Assembly (NCBI GenBank): GCA_030841085.1
Contig: JAVEDP010000020.1
Span: forward strand, 124,001 to 188,000
Length of the DNA: 64,000 nucleotides
Direction: 5' to 3'
Origin: Pyrinomonadaceae bacterium
GTDB lineage: Bacteria > Acidobacteriota > Blastocatellia > Pyrinomonadales > Pyrinomonadaceae
The notes beneath the pieces are model-generated. The model was not told the origin of the DNA, did no database searches, and saw only the letters and a list, made by a program, of their open reading frames with translations. Positions 9,101 through 33,229 of this stretch are shown here, in pieces; positions within the stretch are counted from its first letter, which is position 1; each line of letters opens with the position of its first letter. Made by a program: the position numbers and the translations under genes.

Positions 9101-9439
9101 TGCCCCTGGCAGGACTCGAACCTGCGGCCCTCTGCTTAGCTTCCAGCATCAAGTTTCCCTGACCGCCTGTAGAAGTACAGGTTTGCTGGCTGGACTATAT
9201 CTTGGACATCCCAGTCCCGGCCCGTATAGTCTCTGAGGATCCCCGTTGGTTCCAATGAAAAACCCAAACAGGTTTCCTGCGGATTACCCAATCCTCCCGG
9301 ATTTTTACTCAGCTTGCGAGTACCGGAGGCTCTAAGGGCGTCCCCGCATATGGGGCCGTCCACTCAATGAGTTCGCTGCAAATCATTCCTCATTAAGGCT
9401 CCTACAAGGCAGATGCTCTATCCGCTGAGCTACAGGGGC
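9101..9439 (-). tRNA. tRNA-Arg (TCT) interrupted by a group I intron
   Basis: The 5' exon is 9439-9406 (34 nt) and the 3' exon 9139-9101 (39 nt); spliced they give a standard 73-nt tRNA. Acceptor GCCCCTG pairs with CAGGGGC; D arm GCTC/GAGC; anticodon stem TCTGC/GCAGA with loop CTTCTAA, so anticodon TCT (Arg, AGA codons); T arm GCAGG-TTCGAGT-CCTGC; discriminator A. CCA is not encoded. The intron lies between anticodon positions 34 and 35. It is 32 bp upstream of tRNA-His and probably cotranscribed with it. Confidence 0.93.
9140..9405 (-). ncRNA. 266-nt group I self-splicing intron in tRNA-Arg
   Basis: The sequence between the tRNA halves has the marks of a small tRNA-borne group I intron. The 5' exon ends in U, and its CCUU can pair with an internal guide GAGG (9388-9391), giving the U-G wobble at the splice site (P1). 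The core strands AGAGACTATA (9226-9235) and AAGATATAGTCC (9191-9202) form P7 and the guanosine-binding region. The intron ends in G (9140), the omega-G. It has no convincing internal ORF, so splicing is expected to be autocatalytic. Its size and core resemble the introns in cyanobacterial tRNA-Leu and proteobacterial tRNA genes. Confidence 0.92.
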
Positions 9440-29191: not shown

Positions 29192-29197
29192 AACTGC

Positions 29198-29330
29198 CGG
29201 ACCAACGTGGTGAGTTAAGGCGACTTGCGGCCACGTAAAACAATCGGCTAAACAGCTCGGCGAGTCTTACTTAATAAGACTGACGAAAAGGCTTTGGCAA
29301 GCCCCGCGTTGTTTGGCGCGGGGCTTTCTC
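29198..29330 (+). promoter_or_regulatory. structured metH leader ending in a terminator; riboswitch or attenuator candidate
   Basis: Reading down from the candidate promoter: hairpin CGTGG...CCACG (29206-29235), hairpin AGTCTTA/TAAGACT (29263-29281), and a 10-bp GC stem AAGCCCCGCG/CGCGGGGCTT (29299-29326) followed by TCTCATT. A terminator inside a 5' leader is the classic layout of an attenuating riboswitch. I do not recognise the SAM-I, SAM-II, SAH, THF or cobalamin consensus, so the ligand is not assigned. Confidence 0.5.
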
Positions 29331-32986: not shown

Positions 32987-33003
32987 CAAACAAATGAACT
33001 GCA

Positions 33004-33196
33004 GTCCGCAAAGCGGACGATTGAAAATAGCCCAGCGATTCATCGCTGGGACTCACCAAATAATTAATTAAGTCCCGTAGGGACGACTGAACCTGCAACG
33101 AGTGTTCCGGTCAGTCGTCCCTACGGGACTTGTTGTTTGTTTTGTTCGCGCCCCACCGATGAATCGGTGGGCTATTCTCAACAGTCCCTACGGGAC
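33004..33196. repeat. repeat family K cluster (tcgtccctacgggac)
   Basis: The gap after metH is built of palindromes: cccagcgattcatcgctggg (33033-33052), perfect 20-bp inverted arms at 33071-33090 and 33111-33130 containing gtcccgtagggacgac, cccaccgatgaatcggtggg (33152-33171), and a final solitary half tccctacgggac. No gene is present. Confidence 0.85.
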
Positions 33197-33229
33197 AATT
33201 GATGAAGTCCGCAGTATCTTGGACATTGC

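Follow-up and report, generated by a model that had tools for sequence, protein, structure and literature searches.

A group I intron within the anticodon of a Pyrinomonadaceae tRNA-Arg(UCU) gene and its counterparts at the same site in other bacteria

Group I introns of bacterial tRNA genes

The introns of Azoarcus tRNA-Ile(CAU) and Agrobacterium tRNA-Arg(CCU) are small, of the IC3 kind, and inserted after the anticodon. In the Anabaena intron, P1 is formed by the exon sequence CUU and the intron sequence GAG. The Synechocystis tRNA-fMet intron encodes I-Ssp6803I, which we take to belong to the PF11645 (PDDEXK_5) family. The intron described here interrupts a tRNA-Arg(UCU) gene of a Pyrinomonadaceae bacterium, within a stretch of 64,000 nucleotides that was analysed as a whole (the window; contig JAVEDP010000020.1, positions 124,001 to 188,000). 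Like the Azoarcus and Agrobacterium introns it is a small bacterial tRNA intron; however, it lies within the anticodon and in another tRNA. It shares with the Anabaena intron an insertion point after U34 and a P1 of similar plan, while the host tRNA differs and the P5 extension is larger. In contrast to the Synechocystis intron, the present copy is without a recognizable endonuclease gene and occupies a different tRNA; it is the long relatives at the tRNA-Arg site that encode PF11645 proteins.

The closest precedent with respect to the host comes from giant sulfur bacteria of the Gammaproteobacteria, as introns in tRNA-Arg-TCT, putatively of group I, were reported in Beggiatoa 'Orange Guaymas' and Thiomargarita nelsonii (PMC4853749). 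The structure and type of these introns were not worked out in that report, and they are likened to the present intron by description only. A table of bacterial group I tRNA introns from 2014 is limited to cyanobacteria, alphaproteobacteria and betaproteobacteria (PMC4033280). By its own statement, tRNAscan-SE 2.0 is not designed for detecting such introns (PMC8450103).

Gene boundaries and conserved fold

The gene occupies positions 9439–9101 on the minus strand of the window and is interrupted between U34 and C35 (Table 1). With introns disabled, ARAGORN missed tRNA-Arg(UCU) and reported tRNA-His and tRNA-Pro as the only tRNAs in the window, as might be expected from the warning in the first-pass annotation that standard tRNA finders may miss the gene. 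With introns enabled, tRNA-Arg(tct) was returned with an intron of exactly 266 nt, and the joined exons gave a complete cloverleaf. The insertion between positions 34 and 35, its length, the tRNA-Arg(UCU) host and the perfect tRNA after splicing in silico had all been described from the letters of the sequence and are borne out. The terminal G of the intron was also placed correctly and is the same in relatives. The first base of the intron (G) differs from the first base of the 3' exon (C), and the last base of the intron (G) differs from the last base of the 5' exon (U). Since the bases are mismatched at both ends and any shift would break the anticodon loop, the splice boundary cannot be slid.

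Table 1. Window coordinates of the exons, the intron and its helices.
Feature	Position	Strand	Evidence
5' exon, tRNA-Arg(UCU) positions 1–34	9406–9439	-	ARAGORN with introns; exon-joined cloverleaf
Group I intron, 266 nt, terminal G at 9140	9140–9405	-	RF00028 match; conserved in 13-genome set
3' exon, tRNA-Arg(UCU) positions 35–73, without encoded CCA	9101–9139	-	ARAGORN with introns
P1 3' strand GAG, probably pairing with exon CUU 9408–9406, U34·G at splice site	9399–9401	-	Invariant in 13
P2 5' strand, pairs with 9371–9363	9389–9397	-	98.3% paired; double changes in 2 pairs
P2 3' strand	9363–9371	-	13-genome pair count
P3 5' strand, pairs with 9223–9218	9353–9358	-	100% paired; double changes in 2 pairs
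P3 3' strand	9218–9223	-	13-genome pair count
P4 5' strand, pairs with 9283–9278	9343–9348	-	Invariant, fully paired
P4 3' strand	9278–9283	-	13-genome pair count
P5 5' strand, pairs with 9289–9286	9336–9339	-	Invariant, fully paired
P5 3' strand	9286–9289	-	13-genome pair count
P6 and P6a hairpin; site of endonuclease gene in long relatives	9237–9277	-	Double changes in 4 pairs
P7 5' strand GACUA, guanosine-binding helix, pairs with 9197–9193	9227–9231	-	Invariant, fully paired
P7 3' strand UAGUC	9193–9197	-	13-genome pair count
P8 hairpin, 9217–9214 with 9207–9204	9204–9217	-	100% paired; double change in 1 pair
P9 domain with P9a and P9b	9143–9189	-	P9 invariant; P9a with double changes in 3 pairs

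The assignment to group I follows from a full-length Rfam match and a conserved P1–P9 fold. In the Infernal search that had been proposed in the first-pass annotation, cmscan matched RF00028 (Intron_gpI) over the full model (9422–9178, 36.2 bits, E = 9e-8), and this intron was the only RF00028 match in the genome. The score lies under the curated cut-off of 50 bits, as do those of other members at the same site; this cut-off serves detection and does not define group I introns. At E 0.01, Rfam flagged only two introns when eight relatives were taken together. The general Rfam group I model is weak for this intron family.

A P1–P9 structure was written by hand from one aligned sequence and scored on an alignment of 13 introns, one per genome, from members of the genus and two other genera of the family. 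Across these genomes 97.2% of the pair cells are formed, and each of the 13 helices drawn is 84–100% paired. Control structures obtained by sliding were 29–49% paired, although drawing the structure from one member favors the unslid version in pairing percentage and less so in double changes. Fifteen pairs (38 cells) have changed at both positions, a value reached by none of 500 shuffles, which argues that the fold is under selection. Covariation was found in P2, P3, P5a, P5b, P6, P8 and P9a. Since P1, P4, P5 and P7 are fully paired and without variation, they are neutral with respect to the fold in these 13 sequences. On this comparative evidence, chance pairing is excluded as an account of the predicted structure.

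The hallmarks of group I are present, namely a P3–P9 core with the P3/P7 pseudoknot, in which both helices are 100% paired, and a U·G wobble at the 5' splice site (U34 with G9401 in 13 of 13 genomes). With respect to subgroup IC3, an extra hairpin was observed in P5 as well as kinship with tRNA-Leu introns, in a comparison that included no subgroup model. This kinship was seen with an HMM of the Arg introns, which matches one Pyrinomonadaceae intron in tRNA-Leu(UAA) (E = 2e-24) and one in tRNA-Lys(CUU) (E = 5e-23); these introns thus share an origin.

The P7 strands agree with their first description. In contrast, a P1 of CCUU with GAGG, proposed at the same time, was dropped as GAGG pairs and covaries in P2 (CUUAAUGAG/CUCAUUGAG). 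P1 is probably the exon CUU paired with an intron GAG that begins at intron base 5. The GGAGCC that follows the splice site is also present in relatives with another intron type. As these were found by plain BLAST, its conservation is no artefact of the later pattern search.

Descent and predicted splicing

Searches with BLAST identified the same intron type (258–275 nt) in a further ten members of the genus, in partial form in an eleventh, and once in a different genus; each full copy found in this way adjoins tRNA-His. A further copy is present in G128, from another genus of Pyrinomonadaceae. Four members of the genus (G002, G008, G011 and G013), two of which are 97–98% complete, yielded neither the intron nor an intact gene. 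Intact genes occur in other genera and families of the class (for example, L086, L090, L092, L097 and L098), and a second intron type is found elsewhere in the class at 218–237 nt, or at 645–718 nt with an open reading frame. In trees of the trimmed introns, the present type groups with introns of Omnitrophota (98/86), apart from the other acidobacterial type. The AU test retains a single acidobacterial clade (p = 0.055), and the trees contain long branches; given both, two separate acquisitions in Acidobacteriota were not adopted as an interpretation. Two further loci of the class are irregular. In a 718-nt copy (L093), the 3' half of the tRNA pairs poorly with the 5' half and the gene is perhaps decaying. 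At L092, the intact tRNA-Arg(UCU) is followed by a second 3' half, the two starting 126 bases apart; an integrated element may have left this duplicate as a scar.

Judged from its sequence, the intron almost certainly cuts itself out of the tRNA-Arg(UCU) precursor. The precursor would be transcribed with the intron in place from the minus-strand gene, and P1, formed by exon CUU and intron GAG, would present the U34·G wobble. A guanosine bound in P7 would attack after U34, the freed U34 would attack after the terminal G, and U34 would be ligated to C35 to restore tRNA-Arg(UCU). Taken as a whole, the locus is very probably best explained by a group I intron that we infer to splice out of tRNA-Arg(UCU), either alone or with helper proteins. 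Since the exons, the splice-site bases and the core are intact and conserved, a working intron may be argued.

There is a small chance that a mobile intron entered the gene only lately. The related introns at the same site that carry PD-(D/E)XK or LAGLIDADG genes would suit such a recent arrival by homing, as would the intact genes in several other genera of Pyrinomonadaceae. However, no endonuclease gene was found in this copy, and its genus-wide presence at the same locus beside tRNA-His, at ~76–83% identity, fits a long vertical descent. The copy was probably inherited with its gene within the genus. Since homing endonucleases are encoded by relatives that occupy this site, the ancestor was probably mobile. 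A smaller chance still is given to a dead remnant that no longer splices, with decoding left to another tRNA-Arg(UCU). No second tRNA-Arg(UCU) was found in this assembly, where the other arginine tRNAs read TCG, CCG, ACG and CCT. A dense tRNA array is common to two members of the genus, on contig C21 of the present genome (G000, positions 1–2900, L254) and on contig C5 of the sister genome G014 (L243/L255), and in G014 it contains a second, divergent and intronless tRNA-Arg(UCU). Since the array runs off the start of contig C21, such a gene could lie in the part that is missing, and the claim that the interrupted gene is the sole decoder of AGA was withheld. Against a remnant, G014 retains the array and a well-conserved copy of the intron together, and compensatory change keeps the helices in 13 genomes whose exons, splice-site bases and core are intact. 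The first-pass annotation would have read a second intact gene together with a missing P3–P8 fold as the sign of a dead remnant; the fold is present and conserved.

Removal by a protein endonuclease at a bulge-helix-bulge, in the archaeal style, or a group II intron has a negligible probability. Protein-spliced introns of archaea and eukaryotes usually lie in the anticodon loop (PMC4033280), but the host is a bacterium, and both the full-length group I match and the conserved P3–P7–P8 core speak against these two possibilities.

Endonucleases and spread of the 34/35 site

The homing endonuclease expected of a mobile intron is encoded in relatives only. In this intron no recognizable endonuclease gene was found, the only frame being one of 75 amino acids with an implausible Pfam match below the cut-off. 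The gene of the long relatives sits in P6, which in this intron is a short hairpin. The long copies scanned were found to encode PF11645 (PDDEXK_5) proteins, LAGLIDADG_1 proteins in the case of some Blastocatellia, and HNH_3 proteins in that of viral contigs; most of the remaining endonucleases were assigned by eye through shared motifs. The PDDEXK_5 proteins of the long relatives had no sequence match to a solved structure at E 0.001. Several introns contain truncated frames with a PDDEXK_5-type start. Such a pattern is what one would expect of a homing site at which endonuclease genes are gained, exchanged and lost.

A pattern made of the 5' exon and the start of the intron was scanned against one genome per species and returned at least 114 stretches. 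The 5' exon is given by the search pattern itself, and in the last filtering step hits had to show a 3' exon of the CUA/CUG type and an intron ending in G; UCU was likewise obtained with an earlier filter in which the anticodon was unconstrained. At least 103 complete introns were found at 34/35 of tRNA-Arg(UCU) in at least seven phyla, a lower bound that refers to this site of this tRNA, other sites being outside the scan. They are distributed among Bacilli (at least 32), Gammaproteobacteria (at least 23), Omnitrophota (at least 17), Acidobacteriota (at least 13), Bacteroidota (at least 11), Chloroflexota (at least 3), Thermodesulfobacteriota (at least 2) and other Pseudomonadota (at least 2). 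The suggestion that a UCU host is rarely or not described in this phylum does not hold in view of the Acidobacteriota records and the earlier reports in sulfur bacteria. An intron in tRNA-Arg(UCU) is real but not rare.

It is likely that position 34/35 of tRNA-Arg(UCU) is a bacteria-wide hot spot for group I introns that is sustained by the swapping of unrelated homing endonucleases (PD-(D/E)XK, LAGLIDADG and HNH) and is common to phage tRNA arrays. Under this reading the Pyrinomonadaceae would be a center with hosts that include tRNA-Lys(CUU) and tRNA-Asn(GUU), and the site would be largely overlooked by annotation because tRNA programs skip such genes. Introns of this kind explain the apparent absence of tRNA-Arg(UCU) in some bacterial annotations. 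Acidobacteriota are added to the bacteria with tRNA introns, and the occupancy of many phyla with differing endonucleases provides an extensive natural data set on which to test how homing genes are acquired, lost and swapped. The kind of intron was already known, and the interest lies more in how widely the site is occupied; an earlier broad survey outside the open-access literature could exist.

Several other tRNA genes of Pyrinomonadaceae are interrupted. Group I introns of 218–714 nt were observed at 35/36 of tRNA-Lys(CUU) with a P1 of CUCU/GGAG (L249, L251, L257–L263, L265 and L266), and three long copies contain a frame judged by eye to be PD-(D/E)XK-like; at L268 the tRNA-Lys(CUU) gene is intact. 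Introns at 35/36 of tRNA-Asn(GUU) were found at L247 and L248, and others lie in tRNA-Leu(UAA) (L252), in a tRNA with a 3' exon that begins with CAU (L250) and in 23S rRNA (L253).

Phage introns known by 2014 were all in protein genes according to a review (PMC3984707). In IMG/VR viral contigs (L217–L229), tRNA-Arg(UCU) genes with a group I intron were observed mostly near other tRNA genes, and four long copies have HNH-like genes. Group I introns also interrupt an apparent phage tRNA-Leu(UAA) in Agrobacterium phage Atu_ph07 (L234), where part of the intron is annotated as a hypothetical protein, and in two huge uncultured phages (L231 and L232). In Pelagibacter phage HTVC120P (L230) and a deep-sea phage (L233), a related group I core is flanked by two pieces that both carry a capsid-protein annotation, pointing to an intron within the capsid gene.

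Two other kinds of structured RNA were observed in the window. A SAM-II (SAM_alpha) riboswitch is located at 29197–29272 on the plus strand (42.3 bits), here in an acidobacterium, and two Acido-Lenti-1 RNAs are located ~100 bases apart on opposite strands (33003–33050, minus; 33152–33197, plus).
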